Positions 7,493 through 29,866 of a stretch of 32,987 nt of DNA are shown in pieces. Source of the stretch: Akkermansia muciniphila (GTDB lineage Bacteria; Verrucomicrobiota; Verrucomicrobiia; Verrucomicrobiales; Akkermansiaceae); the NCBI GenBank assembly GCA_945901795.1, contig CAMDLP010000033.1, positions 1 to 32,987 on the forward strand, read 5' to 3'. A model generated the notes under the pieces. It worked only from the letters and a program-made list of their open reading frames with translations. It did not search any database and was not told the DNA's origin. A program made the position numbers and the translations under genes. How positions within the stretch are numbered: position 1 is the stretch's first letter; every line of letters begins with the position of its first letter.

Positions 7493-8296
7493 TCAATTGA
7501 CCTTGTACTCGGCGCGGACGATGGTGATGATGTCCTTCTCGTAGGACGAGGTGTCGTTGTTGCCCTCGGTGGAAGTTTCCGTCGAGTTGGCGGGGTTGAT
7601 ATTGATGATACCCATCGACGAATCCACGAGCGGCCCGATGTTGGTATTGCCAGCCGAGCGCAGGATGTTCTCGGCGCGGTTGCGGGCATCCTTGGCGGCT
7701 TCTGCCAGCATCTCCAGCTTGAGCTCGCCGAGGCGTGTGTAGTAATAATTCGGCGGATGGGAGGTCACGAAGACACCCTGCTCCAGCAGCGAGGTGATCT
7801 CGCGCGAGGCCTTCTCAATCTGCGGCACGTTTGAAGAACTCACGGATACCACCTGAAAGACGCGGAAGCCGACGGACTTGCGGGTTTCCGTTCTCACGGG
7901 CACGTTGGTGCCGGGAAGCACCTTGTCCTCACGCACCATCTCAAACTCCTCGGTGATGCTCGCGGACTGGGTCTTGATGTCGTCCGGCTTGATGCCCTGG
8001 GCTTCCAAAAATTCAACCGCTTTGTCGGTTCCACCCTTCAGCAAAACATAGGCGGCGGTGCGGTCGTCTCCCTTGCCTTCGATGGTCGCCGACCACTCGA
8101 TGAGGTCGGAGACGATTCTCTTCTTGGCGGAGCCGGTGATGCGGATGTTGTTTTTATCCGGTTGTTTTCGGACATCCCGCCAGGTGGTGGCGGCGATGTA
8201 AGTGGAGCCCGCGAGGCCCAGCGCGAGGGCAAAGGCGGCGAGTGGCGGAAGGCTAATGCTGCGGACGGGGCGTTGCGAAGAGTTGTCGGTGCTCAT
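7493..8296 (-). CDS. SIMPL-domain (DUF541) envelope protein
   Basis: This 267-residue protein has one N-terminal membrane anchor (about residues 17-38, SLPPLAAFALALGLAGSTYI) followed by a periplasmic SIMPL/DUF541 domain. Diagnostic stretches are NNIRITGSAKKRIVSDLIEW, AVEFLEAQGIKPDDIKTQS, GFRVFQVVSV and the late helix ELKLEMLAEAAKDARNRAENI. Members include oxidative-stress-related YggE/BP26 proteins that form ring oligomers; the molecular role is not established. The C-terminus has an Asn/Thr/Ser-rich loop (PANSTETSTEGNND) before the last strand, a small insertion relative to YggE. It is transcribed toward the decayed transporter and is probably monocistronic. Confidence 0.85.
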   Translation of the reverse strand: MSTDNSSQRPVRSISLPPLAAFALALGLAGSTYIAATTWRDVRKQPDKNNIRITGSAKKRIVSDLIEWSATIEGKGDDRTAAYVLLKGGTDKAVEFLEAQGIKPDDIKTQSASITEEFEMVREDKVLPGTNVPVRTETRKSVGFRVFQVVSVSSSNVPQIEKASREITSLLEQGVFVTSHPPNYYYTRLGELKLEMLAEAAKDARNRAENILRSAGNTNIGPLVDSSMGIININPANSTETSTEGNNDTSSYEKDIITIVRAEYKVN

Positions 8297-8457
8297 GGTC
8301 GGTTCGGTGGTGGGGTTGTCGGGGACGGATGATCATTGTCGTCACCTGTCAGCCAGTAGATGCGAAGTTTGTTGCTGAAAAGGATCAGAGAAAAAATCCG
8401 ATCCTCGATTGCTGAAAGAAATTGATCTCGACGAACCTGCTTTCGCGCCAATCTCCG

Positions 8458-8862
8458 ATGAAAGTCCTGCTTGATACCGGTGTCTGGTTCCGCCGTTACC
8501 ATCGGCTTCCGCTGAGGCCATCCTTGGTCAAATTCCTCGAAACGGAAGTGACCGAGTTCCATCTGTGTCCCTTGAGCGTGGCAGAGATCGCATTCAAGTG
8601 GCAACGCGGACGCCTGCCGGGAATTCCCGATCCTGCGGCGTAGATCGGTCACTCGTTGGAGAATTTCATCCTGGAGCATGCATCGCCGACGGCTGCCCTA
8701 CAGGCCGGGCTTTGGGACTGGAACCACGGTGATCTTGTGGATCGGCTGCTGGCTGCGGTTGCTGCGGAATCAGGGTTGGTTCTAATCCACACCGACCGGG
8801 TTCTCAAGGGACTCGGGGGTTTTCCCCAGCGCTATTTTCCCAACACGGCTGCGGAAGCTTAA
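8458..8862 (+). pseudogene. PIN-domain (VapC-like) toxin interrupted by an in-frame amber codon
   Basis: One reading frame encodes a complete 134-residue PIN-domain ribonuclease except for a TAG at 8641-8643. The first half (MKVLLDTGVWFRR, then CPLSVAEIAFKWQRGRLPG) supplies acidic residues Asp6 and Glu43. The second half (LWDWNHGDLVDRLLAAVAAE and LVLIHTDRVLKGLG) supplies Asp92/Asp95 and Asp113. This is the order of VapC toxins, which cleave RNA. Alignment with the family suggests a Trp codon TGG mutated to TAG (DPAA-W-IGHSL), with no other damage visible. No antitoxin gene fits in the 160 bases upstream; only a short frame ending LKEIDLDEPAFAPISDESPA overlaps the toxin start and may be an antitoxin tail. 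Without amber suppression the toxin is dead. Confidence 0.8.
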
Positions 8863-8918
8863 GGAACAGACATGGCCCCGATGATTGCGAGGTTGCGTGC
8901 AAAACATTTTGAACAGTC

Positions 8919-10781
8919 TCACTTTGGAAGCAGCTCGTGCCGGAGTCCGATTTGGTCCGCGGCGGCCGCGATCTGCCTGAGGCGTGAATGATAAACCGCA
9001 TCCGTCGGTTTCGCGCCTGCGGGTAAGGTCACGTCCAGCCAGCGTGGCGTGTTTTTCTCGAGGGAATTATCGTCGGGCGGTGTGGCGAAGGCTTTGAGCA
9101 GCGTGGGGAACGGGATCAGTTTTCCGTCGAGGTAAAACTGGCCGCGTTCGTTCGCTGTCAGGGCGGTGATGCCGTCCTCGAAGAGCGCAGCGCGCACCCA
9201 TTCGACGGCCGCATCGGTGTCCTTGGATTCTATCACCAACCTCTCCAGTTCCGCATTCGCCCTCCGCAATCTCTCGATTTCCTCCGCATAACGTTCCTGA
9301 TTCGCGACCTCGTTGCTGACCTTGTCCAGCAGGGCCTGGTTCTCCTTGCGGAGCGCCTCGAACTCCGTGGGAAGCTTCGCTTCGCTCGTGCTCATCCTGC
9401 TGATTTCGCCTAGCATCTTTTGGTTCGATTCAAGCAGGCCGGCCAGACGTTCCTTGTAATCGACGAGTGCGAGTTTCTGCCGATCCAGTTCCACGTTTTT
9501 CCGAACTAACTCCTGCTTGGCGTCGAGCGCCCGCTTCATGCCGATCGTAGTTCCCACCGCCCCCAGCACCAGTGCCAGTAAAAGCGCCGCAGCTGCGAAA
9601 ACCGGCCCGCGATGGCGCCGGGTGAAGCGCTGCATGAGATAGGTCATGCTCGGTGGCCGGGCCTCGACCGGCTTGTGCTGGAGAAAGCGGAACAAGTCCT
9701 CCGCCATCGCCCCCGCGGACTCGTAGCGGCGGCGAGGATCTTTTTCCAGGGCCTTCAGCACGATCCAGTCGAGGTCACCCCGCAGGGCGCGGGGCGTGAC
9801 TCCGGATGGGCCTAGCTGCTCTTGCACCTCCGCTAGTTTGGTGCTCGGCTTCGGCGGCGTTTGCTCGCGGATCAGTCGTTGCATCTCGCCGTAGGCCGCG
9901 CCGCGAAGCCGCTCGCCGTCCAGCGGCGTCGTCCCCGTCAGCAGTTCATACAGGATCACCCCCAGCGAATAGATATCGCTGCGGGTGTCCACGTCCAGCG
10001 CGTGAAGTTCCGCCTGCTCCGGGCTCATGTATTGAGGCGTCCCCATCATCCGGCCGAACTGGGTGAAGACCGTGTTCTCGGTGAGCTCCATCCCGATCGC
10101 CTTCGCGATTCCGAAGTCGATCACCTTTACCATCGGCTTGCCGTCGTGGAGCGCGATAAGTATGTTAGACGGTTTCAGGTCCCGGTGGATGATGCCTTTC
10201 TGGTGCGCGTGTTGCACGGCCGCGCAGACGCCGGTGAAAATTTCCAGCCGTTCCCGGGTATCGAGATGGCTACCGGCACAGTATTTCGTAATCGGCACCC
10301 CGATGACCCGTTCCATCACGAAGTAGGGCCGCCCGCCGTCGGTGGTCCCCGCATCATGGACTTTCGCGATGTGCGGGTGGTCCATCAGGGCCAACGCCTG
10401 TCGCTCCGCCTCGAAGCGCGCGATGATTTCCTTGGAGTCCATTCCCGGCTTGATCACCTTGAGCGCCACCTGACGTTTCACCGGCTGGCTTTGTTCCGCT
10501 AGAAAGACCGTGCCGAAACCGCCCTCGCCGATCTGCCGGAGCAGTTTGTAGCGCCCGATCAGATCGCCCTCCCGCTCACTGCGTGCTTCGAGCCAAAGAG
10601 GATCGGCCAAGGGCTCCATGAAAGTCTCGTCCGCAAAGTGCGCGGCGATGAGCATCTCGACCTCTTCGCGCAACGCCTGATCGCCTCCGCACGTCTCGGT
10701 GAGATAGGCGGCGCGTTCCTGCGGGCCAGGAATTTCCAAGGCCGTATGCAGGATGATTTCCGGAGTGGGTTGATTCGGCAC
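8919..10781 (-). CDS. Membrane-anchored Ser/Thr protein kinase (PknB-like) with C-terminal coiled coil
   Basis: A 620-residue Hanks-type kinase from the GTG at 10781 (MPNQPTPEIILHTALEI). A TTG at 10862 would add 27 residues of unconvincing sequence. The N-terminus carries the short helix block (ERAAYLTETCGGDQALREEV) common ahead of planctomycete/verrucomicrobial kinases. Kinase landmarks are GEGGFGTV (85-92), Lys108 in VALKVIK, HRDLKPSN with Asp201, DFG at 222-224 and the MGTPQYMSPEQ activation segment, so it should be active. One transmembrane helix lies near 394-414 (VFAAAALLLALVLGAVGTTI), then about 115 residues of heptad-like coiled coil, then a 100-residue tail with no recognised sensor fold. 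The ECF sigma factor gene sits 99 bases upstream on the same strand, a common pairing in these phyla, suggesting that the kinase controls that sigma factor's regulon. Confidence 0.9.
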   Translation of the reverse strand: MPNQPTPEIILHTALEIPGPQERAAYLTETCGGDQALREEVEMLIAAHFADETFMEPLADPLWLEARSEREGDLIGRYKLLRQIGEGGFGTVFLAEQSQPVKRQVALKVIKPGMDSKEIIARFEAERQALALMDHPHIAKVHDAGTTDGGRPYFVMERVIGVPITKYCAGSHLDTRERLEIFTGVCAAVQHAHQKGIIHRDLKPSNILIALHDGKPMVKVIDFGIAKAIGMELTENTVFTQFGRMMGTPQYMSPEQAELHALDVDTRSDIYSLGVILYELLTGTTPLDGERLRGAAYGEMQRLIREQTPPKPSTKLAEVQEQLGPSGVTPRALRGDLDWIVLKALEKDPRRRYESAGAMAEDLFRFLQHKPVEARPPSMTYLMQRFTRRHRGPVFAAAALLLALVLGAVGTTIGMKRALDAKQELVRKNVELDRQKLALVDYKERLAGLLESNQKMLGEISRMSTSEAKLPTEFEALRKENQALLDKVSNEVANQERYAEEIERLRRANAELERLVIESKDTDAAVEWVRAALFEDGITALTANERGQFYLDGKLIPFPTLLKAFATPPDDNSLEKNTPRWLDVTLPAGAKPTDAVYHSRLRQIAAAADQIGLRHELLPK

Positions 10782-10880
10782 GGCGGGTGGTTGTTTATGG
10801 AAGCTTGAGACCGTCTCTGACCTTGAACTTACTATGCGGAATAACCCAGGAGATGGGATCAAAAAATGTCGGATGCCCGC

Positions 10881-11450
10881 TCAACCGTCCCGTTTCAGTT
10901 CCCGGAACAACCAGGCCCGCGCATAAATCCAATCACGCTTCGCCGTGGGCGTCGAAATGCCGAGGGCCTCGGCGGTTTCCTCGATGGTCATTCCGACGAA
11001 ATAGCGCAACTTGACCACCTCGGCCTTGCGGGGTTCGATTTGGGCGAGGCGATCGAGGATTTCATGGATGGCAAGAATCTCGTCATCTTTCACGGAAGGG
11101 ACGGCGATGATGTCTTCCGCGAAGTCGGTCCGCTGTAATTCGCCCCCATGCCGCACGGCTTTTCGATGGCGCGCCCGGTCGATCAGGATGCGGCGCATGG
11201 CCTCGGCGGCCGCGCAGAAAAAGTGCTTTCGCCCCTGCCACTGCGGTTCCCCGGGCGAGAGCTTCAGGTAGGCTTCATGCACCAAGGCGGTCGCCTGCAG
11301 GGTATTTGCCTCCGCTTCCTGCCCCAAGCGCCAGGCCGCCAGCTTGCGCAACTCGCCATAGACGAGCGGAATCAACTCCTCCGCCGCCTGCCGGTCTCCC
11401 TCGCTTGCGGCATTGAGGATGAGAGTCACATGGTCGGTGCCGTCTTCCAT
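10881..11450 (-). CDS. ECF sigma factor, PF07638 type
   Basis: A 189-residue extracytoplasmic-function sigma factor from ATG 11450 (MEDGTDHVTLILNAAS). An upstream start at 11489 would add 13 unlikely residues. Region 2 is visible as LVYGELRKLAAWRLGQE ... NTLQATALVHEAYLKL and KHFFCAAAEAMRRILIDRAR, the PF07638 (Sigma70_ECF) pattern typical of Planctomycetes, Verrucomicrobia and Acidobacteria. Region 4 reads EPRKAEVVKLRYFVGMTIEE and AEALGISTPTAKRDWIYARA, the DNA-binding helix-turn-helix. No anti-sigma gene is present; instead a membrane kinase follows, so activity is probably tuned by phosphorylation (inference). Confidence 0.92.
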   Translation of the reverse strand: MEDGTDHVTLILNAASEGDRQAAEELIPLVYGELRKLAAWRLGQEAEANTLQATALVHEAYLKLSPGEPQWQGRKHFFCAAAEAMRRILIDRARHRKAVRHGGELQRTDFAEDIIAVPSVKDDEILAIHEILDRLAQIEPRKAEVVKLRYFVGMTIEETAEALGISTPTAKRDWIYARAWLFRELKRDG

Positions 11451-15972: not shown

Positions 15973-16000
15973 GTGACACAGGCATTCCTGCCTGTTCTTC
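15973..16000 (+). repeat. Dispersed palindromic repeat (copy A) at the edge of a truncated antitoxin
   Basis: GTGACACAGGCATTCCTGCC followed by TGTTCTTC. It matches 26 of 28 bases of the left arm of the element at 20785-20854. An internal hairpin CAGGCA-TTCC-TGCCTG is present. It abuts the point where recognisable antitoxin sequence begins, so it may mark the recombination or insertion that removed the antitoxin's N-terminus. Confidence 0.7.
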
Positions 16001-16237: not shown

Positions 16238-18820
16238 TCAAGCATCCTTCGCCTTCGCCGCTTTCTTCGCGGCGACCTTTTTCACCGGGCGCGGCGGGAA
16301 GTCGAAGCCGATCTTGCCGTCCTTCACATCGAAGGTGAGGTGGGCGTCGAACTTGCGCTTGGTGCGGTTGGAGACGAAGCCTTTGAGGACGTCGGTTTTT
16401 CCACTGCCGATCAATTTGAGCATCTGGTCCTGCGGGATTTCGCACTGGAGGATGGACTTGCCGATGCGGATGCCGTGCGGGTCCTTCTTGGTGACGATTT
16501 CCGGGACGTGATAGGCTTTGTCCGTGGCGAACACCTTGTAGGATTTGCCTTCTTCGGTTTTCGCCTCGCCGATGAAATGTTCCTCGGTGAGCTCGGGCGG
16601 GCCGTCGCGGTCGTCACCTTCGAAGACGAAGTTGATCTTGAATTTCGCGTCCATTTCGAGCGCGGCGTCGAAGGGCTTGTTGAACTTCGAGCGGAAGCCG
16701 GTGAGCGGGCCGACGTGTTTGGCGGTGAAGAGCTGGATGGCTTCCTCTTCGCCGAGCAGGCGGCCGGCGATGTGTTTCTTGGCCTTGAATTTGCACTCCG
16801 GCTCGCGGCATTCGTAGGTGGCCTCGGTTTGTTTGAGGCTCGGCGCGCCGCACATCGGGCAGGTGACTTTGAGGTCGGGGAAGACTTCGCTTTTCGCGAG
16901 GTCGGCGGCGGAGCGGGCCTTGGTGCAGATCTCGTTGGTGTAGGCGATGATCTCCTTCATGAAATCGCCGCGCTTGAGAATTCCTTGCTCCATTTGGCGG
17001 AGTTTGAACTCCCAATCGCCTGTCAATTTCGGCGAGTAGAGTCCTTCAATTTCCATCTCGCGGACGAGATCGATGAGGCGCATGCCGCTGCCGGAAACGA
17101 AGAGTTCGCGGCCTTCGCGGGCGAGGTATTTTTGGGAGATCAGGCCCTCGATAGTCGCCGCGCGGGTGGCGGGTGTGCCGAGACCGCGCTCGGCCATGGC
17201 TTCGCGGAGCGCTTCGTCGTCGATGAGTTTGCCGGCGCCTTCCATCGCTGAGAGCAGCGTGGACTCGGTCATCCGGGCGGGCGGCTTGGTTTCCTCGGCG
17301 AGGACATCGACTGGGGCTGCATGGGCGGTTTCACCGGCGCTGACCGGGCAGAGCTCGTCCTTGCCTGCGGCGACGCCGGGGCGGCGGCCATAAACTTCGA
17401 GCCAGCCGGGTTTCACCAGGATGCGGCCTTCGGTTTTGAATACGTCAGAACAGGCGAGACGCCCGTTCTCCGACACAGGCGAAACGCCTGTGCTCCCTTC
17501 GATGCGGGTGAGGCGCGTCGTTTGCTCAAACTCGGCGGACGGATAGAAGACGGCGATGAAGCGCTTGACGATCATGTCGTAAAGTTTCTGTTCGGCTTCG
17601 CTGAGCTTGGCGAACTTGCCGGTCGGGATGATGGCAAAGTGATCCGAGACTTTTTTGCTGTCGAAAACGCGGCGTGATTTATGCAGGCGCGGGCCTTTTT
17701 CGTCGCTGCCGGAGAGCACGGCTTTGGCGTATTTCGCCACGTCGAGATCGCTGTTGCCGACGTCCGCCATCGTCTCGCGGACGTTGCCGGTGTAATCCTC
17801 CGGCAGATACCGCGAATCGGTCCGCGGGTAGGTGATCATCTTGTGCTTTTCGTAAAGCGCTTGGGCGATCTGGAGTGTGCCTTTCGCGGAAAACGGCGCT
17901 TCGCGTTGCAGTGTGGTGAGGTCGTAAAGCTGCGGGGAAATCTGCGAGTTCGCCTTTTTCTCCTCGGTGACCTTGCCGGTCTTGCCTTGGCAACGCGCTT
18001 GAATCGCCTCGGCGGTCAGCTTGTCCCAGATCCGCTCGGGCCTGGAGAGCGGGGCGTTTTCGTCCTTTTTCCACGCTTCATCGATCCATTTACCTAAATA
18101 CTCGCCGGCCTGCACGCCGAAGGTGGCGTGGACTTCGAAATACGGCGTTGGTCTGAAGGCCTGGATCTCGGCCTCGCGCTGGGCGAGGATGGCAAGCGTC
18201 GGTGTCTGGACGCGGCCGGCGGCGGTGATGTTGAAGCCGCCGTGGCGGGAATTGAAGCAAGTGAGCGCGCGGGTGGCGTTGAGACCGACGAGCCAATCCG
18301 ACTCGGACCGGCACTTCGCGGCATCCGCGAGCGGCTTCATGGACTCGCCAGAGCGCAGGTTTTCCCAGGCTTCGAGAATCGAGTTATTGGTCATCGACTG
18401 CATCCACAGCCGCTTGACCGGCTTGTTAATTTCGCCGATTTCCATGATGTAGCGGAAGATGAGTTCACCTTCGCGGCCGGCGTCGCAGGCGTTGACGATG
18501 AGGTCGATGTCCTTGCGCTTGGCGAGCTTGAGCACCTGCTTGAGGCGGGCCTCGGAGTCCGGGATCGGGTCGAGGTCGAACTTGTCCGGGATGGCGGGAA
18601 GGACGCTGAAATTCCACGGCAGTTTCTTGCCGTTCGGCCCCATCGGCATGCGTAGCTCGACGAGGTGACCGACGGCGGAGGTGATGACGGCGTTGTCGTT
18701 TTCGAAAAACACGTCGCGACCGGATCCGGACTTTTCAAACTTGCCGAGCTCCTTGGCGAGCACGCGGCTGAGGTCGGTCATGACGCTCGGTTTCTCGGCA
18801 ATGATGAGTGTTTTTCCCAT
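16238..18820 (-). CDS. topB: DNA topoisomerase III (type IA) with an 18-residue repeat-derived insert
   Basis: An 860-residue type IA topoisomerase that relaxes or decatenates DNA through a 5'-phosphotyrosine. The Toprim domain has [10 protein letters not shown] (Glu9) and ACDAGREGE (Asp113, Glu117, Glu119). The catalytic Tyr331 is in [13 protein letters not shown], and the [14 protein letters not shown] block is the conserved topo III/TopA segment. The C-terminal region has a zinc-ribbon motif (CPMCG ... CREPECKFK), then two topo-C-terminal repeat-like segments, and a Lys/Ala-rich tail. Residues 443-460 ([15 protein letters not shown] core) have no counterpart in the family: the expected sequence passes straight from TRLTRIEG to [13 protein letters not shown]. 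The insert coincides with a double palindrome in the DNA. The gene stands alone, with repeat elements on its upstream side. Confidence 0.95.
17441..17494 (-). repeat. In-frame palindromic repeat insertion inside topB
   Basis: 54 bases with two hairpins side by side: an imperfect 23-base palindrome (AGAACAGGCG-AGA-CGCCCGTTCT, 17447-17469) and a perfect 19-base one (CACAGGCG-AAA-CGCCTGTG, 17474-17492). Both resemble the AGGC...GCCT hairpins of the intergenic repeats at 15973 and 20785. Its length is a multiple of three and it contains no stop on the topB strand, so it adds 18 residues without breaking the enzyme. Confidence 0.75.
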
Positions 18821-18895: not shown

Positions 18896-18963
18896 AAGGA
18901 ATGTGTTTAGCCCGACTCAGTCGTGGGACAGGATCCGGCTGCGACAGCCGGAACACATTCCTT
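18896..18963. repeat. Palindromic repeat between topB and the SGNH gene
   Basis: Outer arms AAGGAATGTGTT (18896-18907) and AACACATTCCTT (18952-18963) are perfect complements, and inner arms CCGGCTG/CAGCCGG (18935-18951) form a hairpin with a CGA loop. The right half is one unbroken arm (CAGCCGGAACACATTCCTT); the left half is split by 27 bases. Related arms occur at 19909-19967 and 29831-29860. It lies between divergent start regions, so it is not a simple terminator. Confidence 0.7.
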
Positions 18964-19908: not shown

Positions 19909-19967
19909 AACGTGTTCCGGCTGTCTCCACCGGATTTCGCTTCCGACTGAGACAGCCGGAGCACTTT
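19909..19967. repeat. Inverted repeat downstream of the SGNH gene (probable terminator role)
   Basis: Left arm AACGTGTTCCGGCTGTCTC (19909-19927) and right arm GAGACAGCCGGAGCACTTT (19949-19967) pair at 16 of 19 positions around a 21-base loop. The right arm is the same sequence family as at 18945-18963 and 29841-29856. Placement right after a stop codon suggests it also ends transcription or stabilises the mRNA 3' end. Confidence 0.7.
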
Positions 19968-20042
19968 CCCAGTGGAAAATCCCCGGTCTTTTCCACCAGG
20001 AAATCAGTTGCGACAAAATCAAAGGGCCGTAAACATCCCCTC

Positions 20043-20783: not shown

Positions 20784-20784
20784 C

Positions 20785-20854
20785 GTGATATAGGCATTCC
20801 TGCCTGTTCTTCAAAGCATGGTGGGACAAGAACAGGCAGGAATGCCACTATCAC
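20785..20854. repeat. Large inverted repeat between the peptidase and lpxK (copy B)
   Basis: Left arm GTGATATAGGCATTCCTGCC plus TGTTCTT (20785-20811) and right arm AAGAACAGGCAGGAATGCC plus ACTATCAC (20828-20854) pair at 25 of 27 positions around a 16-base loop. It starts one base after the peptidase stop codon. The left arm is the element at 15973-16000. As RNA it would be an extremely stable hairpin, so it probably acts as terminator for the peptidase gene and insulates lpxK. Confidence 0.8.
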
Positions 20855-20897
20855 GCTTGCCCGCAGGCGGAGCTGCGGAACATGGTCGGTGCAGGCC

Positions 20898-29830: not shown

Positions 29831-29851
29831 TCCCGGCTGAGACAACCGGGA
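29831..29851. repeat. Palindrome between convergent DUF2330 and CorC genes
   Basis: TCCCGGCTG-AGA-CAACCGGGA pairs at 8 of 9 positions, followed by ACACTTTCTTTG. The GAGACAACCGGGACACTTTC portion matches the right arms at 18945 and 19949 (GAGACAGCCGGAGCACTTTC), so it belongs to the same dispersed family. Between two converging stops it likely serves as a bidirectional terminator. Confidence 0.65.
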
Positions 29852-29866
29852 CACTTTCTTTGATCC

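Follow-up and report, generated by a model that had tools for sequence, protein, structure and literature searches.

Palindromes of the REP type have been described in frame inside genes. In-frame intragenic REPs, many of them in repair genes, are reported in PMC3733652, where those of the GTAG type occur mostly in Opitutus terrae, and in-frame REPs in a verrucomicrobium were already known before the case described here. The accessible text of the same paper describes RAYT transposases flanked by REPs or inverted repeats and does not describe RAYTs inside other genes; it also states that the Rickettsia repeats RPE-4 and RPE-6 are CGTC-tagged and that CGTC repeats have no association with transposase genes. 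The TnpA_REP of E. coli cleaves at a CT next to GTAG-tagged REPs (PMC8266576). REPs have been found in frame inside tnpA_REP itself, in subclass 2.4, in a study in which unexpectedly long proteins were discarded as gene fusions or annotation errors (PMC6006769). RAYTs are portrayed as domesticated, vertically inherited and single-copy, with no evidence of significant horizontal transfer in the accessible part of that account, and the accompanying model of REPIN persistence assumes that a gene is destroyed when a REPIN is copied into it (PMC8049555). The accessible part of PMC2817692 contains nothing on RAYT fusions, and a search of the open-access literature, subscription papers and preprints lying outside its scope, showed no case of a RAYT described in frame within another gene.

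A palindrome pair within topoisomerase III

The window, the whole 32,987-nucleotide stretch of Akkermansia muciniphila DNA that was analysed, contains an 860-residue open reading frame, topB, the product of which is DNA topoisomerase III and matches solved topoisomerase III chains with an E value of 1e-72 (Table 1). Two adjacent hairpins, CACAGGCG-TTT-CGCCTGTG followed by AACGGGCG-TCT-CGCCTGTT, are translated within it, each with the tag GGAG on its 5′ side, and a CT can be read from the sequence at 17447-17448, on the 3′ side of the second hairpin. When folded as DNA, the 54-base strand reaches −19.6 kcal/mol (z −5.5), a value equalled by none of 200 shuffles; when folded as RNA, it has a z of −4.0, equalled by one of 200. 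Both foldings identify it as a short imperfect palindrome able to fold, as is expected of a REP.

Table 1. Positions in the window of topB, its insert and related palindromes
Feature	Position	Strand	Basis or remark
Related palindrome AGGCATTCCTGCCT at gene edge	15980..15993	+	Shares the stem type of the insert
topB, host of the insert	16238..18820	-	ORF and similarity to solved topoisomerase III
In-frame REP pair	17441..17496	-	54-base stretch is 17441-17494, residues 443-460
Second hairpin, loop TCT, one G-T pair	17449..17467	-	Tag GGAG at 17468-17471
First hairpin, stem 8, loop TTT	17474..17492	-	Tag GGAG at 17493-17496
Two related palindromes, inverted, REPIN-like	20784..20855	+	Arms 93% complementary, 16 nt apart

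That the insert is an added element follows from the comparison of TopB loci and not from the strength of its hairpins. The window has four perfect stems of at least 7 with a loop of 3, and 20 shuffled windows have 2.75 on average, so that a bare hairpin is not above chance. Special stop-freeness of the element is likewise unsupported, as five of its six frames are open; among random pieces of like composition, a given single frame is open in 57% and all six are open in 5%. The comparison comprised 110 TopB loci (the window being counted twice), 99 of which were readable between two anchors and 11 of which were not. The loop between the anchors measures 38-43 aa in 91 of the 99 rows and 50-57 aa in the other eight. 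These eight rows (L001 and L011, both the window; L012 and L042; L080; L013 and L043; and L046) represent five genomes, the identity of L012 with L042 and of L013 with L043 being inferred from equal sequence. Relative to the 38-aa form, the net insert in the window amounts to 16 aa, or 48 nt. The palindromes of the five insert-bearing genomes occupy one loop and differ in sequence: L012 and L080 carry a single CACAGGCGTCTCGCCTGT, L013 carries GCAGGCATTCCTGCCTGC and ACAGGCAAGAATGCCTGT in a different reading frame, and L046 carries CACAGGCATCCTGCCTGT. In the alignment of TopB to solved topoisomerase III, the insert segment lies partly opposite gaps. In an AlphaFold model (27 aligned TopB sequences, mean pLDDT 78.7), the insert tips a beta hairpin formed by strands 429-441 and 458-470, and pLDDT drops below 50 at residues 444-455.

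A sequence-only reading had proposed that these residues of TopB are encoded by an in-frame double-hairpin palindrome, and the ORF, the folding and the TopB comparison bear this out. The alignment with homologues that it called for confirmed the insert, more distant TopB proteins being without those residues, and the position at the poorly modelled tip of a beta hairpin agrees with the tolerant loop that it had predicted. It had also placed the element in a phylum other than that of Rickettsia; the nearest named relatives of this TopB are indeed Akkermansiaceae and other Verrucomicrobiota. A search of plasmid records with TopB returned only homologues below 60% identity, and these were left out of the analysis.

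Copies of the element and RAYT ends in the same genome

The genome to which the window belongs (3.28 Mb in 120 contigs; G000 below) holds four further matches to the TopB element at E < 1e-7, with copies of 46-48 nt and 85-92% identity, and the genome search suggested by the sequence-only reading therefore did recover other copies. One copy, on contig C2, adjoins a match to Y1_Tnp (PF01797) and has an inverted weak match on the far side. The pattern CAGGCNTNNNGCCTG has 12 matches in G000 against none for the reversed pattern, several of the 12 being unrelated coding sequence. At 11 more places that were inspected, the hairpin lies within a long reading frame in six. Family searches assign four of these frames to DNA polymerase A, a UvrA-interaction-domain protein, monomeric isocitrate dehydrogenase and ThiC; the fifth, which gave only a general ABC match, we read as a putative UvrA, and the sixth, for which the family search was empty, resembles a DNA methyltransferase fragment. 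Loci L010, L120, L122 and L127 resemble unrelated coding sequence, and L124 resembles another palindrome family. Whereas REPs are characterized by high copy number and a mostly extragenic location, the element has few copies, and those inspected lie in reading frames.

The insert had also been related to the palindromes between the genes of the window. This kinship holds in part: the stem type is common to the insert and to AGGCATTCCTGCCT at 15980 and 20792, the inverted pair in Table 1 being of the AGGCATTCCTGCCT type, whereas the exact element differs. A second palindrome family, in which CCGGCTGnGACAGCCGG precedes nACACnTTC, occurs in the window at 18934-18961, 19942-19969 and 29832-29859, with a partial inverted copy at 19909-19935.

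Four Y1 transposases of G000 share one open frame each with domains of CarB, AlaRS, MetH and IspG (GcpE), and each of these enzymes has one match in the genome. Four TopB inserts were aligned with the ends of 77 full-length in-frame RAYT units of this kind (the first set), with 30 shuffled queries as a control. The window insert scored highest with the CarB RAYT of its own genome, reaching 32 at each end (shuffled best 15); this is the RAYT association expected of a REP. The insert of G010, whose TopB is 96% identical, likewise matched its own LeuRS RAYT best, scoring 29 and 26 with the two ends (shuffled best 16). Best matches were weak for the inserts of G024 (20, in RAYTs of other genomes; shuffled best 17) and L046 (20, with the LeuRS RAYT of G010; shuffled best 14). 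At the left ends of in-frame RAYT units, the tag GTRG or GGAG stands beside the longest hairpin in 51 of 97 units and on the opposite side in 22 of 97, these tags being present in 10.6% of random 11-mers. Exact GTAG, the canonical REP tag in place of which TopB has GGAG, stands beside the longest left hairpin in eight of the 97.

The palindromic elements of Rickettsia, which the insert had been said to recall, are not supported as its best likeness, given the GGAG tag and the match to the ends of a transposase unit in the same genome; identity with a Rickettsia-type RPE was dismissed as a misfit in both tag and transposase association. Ordinary length variation of the TopB loop, with a hairpin arising by chance, would accord with the 38- and 42-aa loop forms that exist in the TopB family and with hairpins of this size being not rare in the window. 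The 46-48-nt genome copies and the match to RAYT ends leave this explanation with next to no credence, and it was dismissed as the source of the insert. The TopB insert is best explained as a REP pair of the non-autonomous kind, probably mobilized by a resident RAYT.

RAYTs in frame inside enzymes

The in-frame life of RAYTs inside enzymes is a larger discovery than the TopB insert. A profile, A1, was built from the four in-frame Y1 transposases of G000, and its best PDB match is TnpA_REP 4er8 (E 1.2e-9). Matches to A1 are present at E 1e-10 in 54 of 59 genomes of relatives and at E 1e-30 in 109 of 387 genomes of a phylum sample. Among the 150 matches listed for the relatives, 78 lie within open frames of at least 400 aa and 64 within frames of at least 700 aa, an in-frame share that is biased upward because the list is ranked by likeness to the four in-frame units; among the 150 matches listed for the phylum sample, 52 lie within frames of at least 600 aa. 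From regions selected for long frames, 80 RAYT-bearing ORFs were extracted. At least 50 aa of other sequence flank the RAYT on both sides in 66 of them, and many of the remaining 14 reach a contig end. Counted per genome, after removal of a double extraction (IspG and AlaRS of G012), the hosts are IspG in 18, MetH in 17, LeuRS in 13, AlaRS in 8 and CarB in 5, with other hosts in 16 genomes. Forty additional loci from the phylum, in 36 of which 50 aa or more flank the RAYT on either side, add ValRS, PriA, exonuclease VII, B12-radical SAM proteins, creatininase, an MgsA-like AAA protein, HsdR and methylases. A Pfam scan of 18 representatives recognized Y1_Tnp in 15; L411 and L235 fell below the cut-off, and L423 gave no family. 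The RAYT of L407 (fumarase family) is terminal and possibly a tail fusion.

RAYT-type units are also seen in restriction-modification genes (HsdR and Eco57I-type methylases; L213, L214, L216, L235, L236, L411 and L415), so an essential host is unnecessary. In a further arrangement, on contig C138 of G020 (L233), a RAYT-type ORF at 7665-8270 lies about 170 nt from topB at 8440-10974. Occupied sites are present in single-contig genomes (MetH in G003, IspG in G370), which is evidence against assembly error. The picture of RAYTs as free-standing, single-copy and vertically inherited does not describe these units, which lie inside hosts, number several per genome and show unequal divergence in five of 30 close pairs.

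Inverted repeats of at least 14 nt, with one mismatch permitted, are present at both ends of 85 of the 110 units with sufficient flank, and repeats of at least 18 nt in 71; in the shuffled control (three shuffles each), repeats of at least 14 nt were present in 0 of 110. These end repeats, which correspond to the flanking REPs or inverted repeats of RAYTs, are hairpins whose sequence varies between units. The HUH and Y..NP motifs are both recognizable in 101 of 117 in-frame units, the other 16 being without one or both, and, with the 4er8 match, they point to the HUH and catalytic tyrosine motifs of a RAYT. For 16 chosen pairs, dN/dS ranges from 0.11 to 0.42 in the RAYT and from 0.03 to 0.26 in the host, the 'RAYT' part of the HsdR pair taking in other sequence. 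By this measure, taken from sequence, the in-frame RAYTs are shown to be under purifying selection.

An insert removed after transcription or translation, in an intein-like or IStron-like manner, would never be carried by the enzyme, and it would then be less puzzling that essential enzymes tolerate 200-250 added residues. The RAYT units, however, are open in frame throughout, the intein (Hint) family is absent from Pfam scans of 22 host ORFs, and in-frame stubs and REP-only remnants persist, for which intein-type splicing is impossible. We consider such removal very doubtful, and an intein or other spliced insert was dismissed as the leading view on account of the missing splicing domain and the in-frame stubs.

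Site occupancy, divergence and comparison with known systems

The CarB site was readable in 25 of 30 loci. It measures 34 aa in 13 congeners, including G012, which is 99% identical to G000 over the CarB stretch searched and yet has the 34-aa site; six others have 40-68 aa (several REP-like), three hold a RAYT (273-298 aa), and three outside the genus have 42-81 aa. The IspG site, readable in 24 of 30 loci, holds a RAYT (271-305 aa) in ten and has 34-36 aa in seven and 39-98 aa in five, the remaining two being outside the genus; the six unreadable loci include G000 and G025, in which the RAYT-bearing ORF ends at or near the contig end. The 98 aa at the IspG site of G018 comprise a C-terminal RAYT stub, and in the IspG of G005 (L198) the usual site has an N-terminal RAYT stub and a second, later site holds a full RAYT, both in frame. 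At the MetH site, 24 of 30 loci were examined, giving six with a RAYT, five empty and 13 unreadable by this anchor. At the AlaRS site, examined in 25 of 30 loci, six hold a RAYT and several have 30-48 aa, in addition to longer repeat-rich inserts. The AlaRS proteins of G005 (L375) and G018 (L376) have in-frame inserts of 301 and 92 aa that are repeat-rich REP-like peptides; the same AlaRS site holds a RAYT in other genomes. On this reading of the loci, one genus is shown to contain the same sites in empty, scarred and occupied states.

Some sites that are occupied by a full RAYT in other genomes contain a RAYT stub or a REP-only insert (IspG of G018, the first IspG site of G005, and CarB of G022 and G018), which suggests another origin for the TopB pair, in which a full RAYT formerly at the TopB site was lost by in-frame deletion and the REP pair was left behind. 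We think this unlikely, as none of the extracted units has its RAYT in a TopB ORF and the same REP is also in frame in the genes for PolA, IDH and ThiC.

A RAYT tree of 97 rows (77 from long frames and 20 chosen free-standing; quick search, SH-aLRT only) tracks the host gene, needing 18 label changes where shuffled labels need 65.4 on average (none of 200 shuffles as low). One branch separates the IspG units (support 85), another those of AlaRS (100) and another 15 of the 17 MetH units (96); the LeuRS, CarB, HsdR and methylase units do not form single clades, LeuRS requiring three changes and the other three two each. Divergence at fourfold sites was compared between RAYT and host in 385 within-host pairs, which are not independent of each other. 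Among the 30 pairs with RAYT identity above 75%, the RAYT is less diverged than the host (p < 0.05) in five, no significant difference is seen in 25, and the reverse is seen in none. The five are MetH G014-G016 (RAYT 1/92 versus host 185/394, p 1e-20), MetH G003-G007 (17/82 versus 194/434, p 4e-5), IspG G000-G012 (2/123 versus 25/171, p 6e-5), IspG G010-G029 (21/100 versus 113/270, p 2e-4) and LeuRS G018-G028 (3/100 versus 31/226, p 0.003), the last being lost after correction for 30 tests. Among the 355 pairs with RAYT identity of at most 75%, the RAYT is more diverged (p < 0.05) in 90, which could reflect replacement by other lineages or a faster rate of change, and less diverged in one. In the MetH pair G014-G016, near-identity extends beyond the hairpins, by about 30 nt on the left and by 65-90 nt on the right, a pattern expected if short flanks were transferred together with the unit; an assembly artefact between co-occurring genomes is a possible source of this near-identity.

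Old vertical inheritance alone, with one early RAYT per host gene followed by losses and uneven rates and with no present mobility, would account for the clustering of RAYTs largely by host gene and for the 25 of 30 close pairs without a significant difference in divergence. It is at odds with MetH G014-G016 and the three further pairs at p < 0.001, and with the TopB palindromes of sister species, which differ and each match a resident RAYT; we hold it to be decidedly improbable. Site-specific lineages, empty alleles and apparent same-site spread, the features of a homing element, are all found here, and RAYT spread appears homing-like, apparently without splicing. Active homing and recombination through host flanks would fit the data alike. 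We consider it probable that the TopB REP pair derives from a resident RAYT and that, jointly, in-frame RAYT units spread to the same sites in a homing-like manner.

In the mechanism that we propose, the RAYT would be made within the host enzyme chain or from an internal start. It would cut and join single strands at tagged hairpins, so that REPs or whole RAYT units would be pasted elsewhere, with survival limited to insertions that keep the frame, contain no stop and fall in a tolerant loop. Whole units would reach the same gene site in other species through homing-like insertion or flank recombination, either of which would give each host gene its own RAYT lineages. Residence in an essential gene would guard the element from out-of-frame deletion, and its decay would lead to in-frame scars. 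Translation as one chain, tolerance by the enzyme, mobilization in trans and homing are the steps that we infer. To the broader proposal we would give an even chance: a splicing-free homing element of Verrucomicrobiota, in which a RAYT with REP hairpins would live as a translated guest domain in fixed loops within essential enzymes, spread to empty alleles of that gene in other species, scatter hairpins in frame among genes such as topB, polA and thiC, and decay to in-frame scars.

In contrast to the picture drawn in the accessible part of PMC8049555, the transposase itself appears here as a tolerated in-frame guest of single-copy enzymes, which is under purifying selection and apparently moves from species to species at one and the same site. 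Should this be confirmed, it would be a further way to live inside an essential gene, beside inteins and introns, and would offer a natural inventory of the protein loops in which a domain of 200-250 aa is accepted. The mobilization of REPs in trans, of topB by the guest of carB, would become directly testable.

Among known systems, the GTAG-type REPs and REPtrons of PMC3733652 share several features with this case: tagged hairpins that keep the frame of genes such as uvrA, an occurrence partly in the same phylum, and RAYT genes bordered by REPs or inverted repeats. As far as they are described there, they differ from the present case, in which GGAG or GTGG often serves as the tag and the REP has few copies, those inspected being mostly genic. 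TnpA_REP of subclass 2.4 (PMC6006769) likewise tolerates in-frame REP insertion in coding sequence; there the REP lies inside tnpA, whereas here tnpA lies inside other genes. The palindromic elements of Rickettsia share with the TopB insert a palindrome translated in frame in many proteins, but the RPE-4/6 type has a CGTC tag and, in the account of PMC3733652, no link to a transposase, whereas the TopB insert is GGAG-tagged and RAYT-linked. Inteins with a homing endonuclease, as presented in PMC1654191, resemble the RAYT units as in-frame guests at conserved sites of important genes, with a cycle of empty, full and decayed states and same-site spread. The RAYT units differ from them in carrying hairpin ends and no detected splicing domain, and in having an HUH/Tyr transposase in the place of the homing endonuclease.
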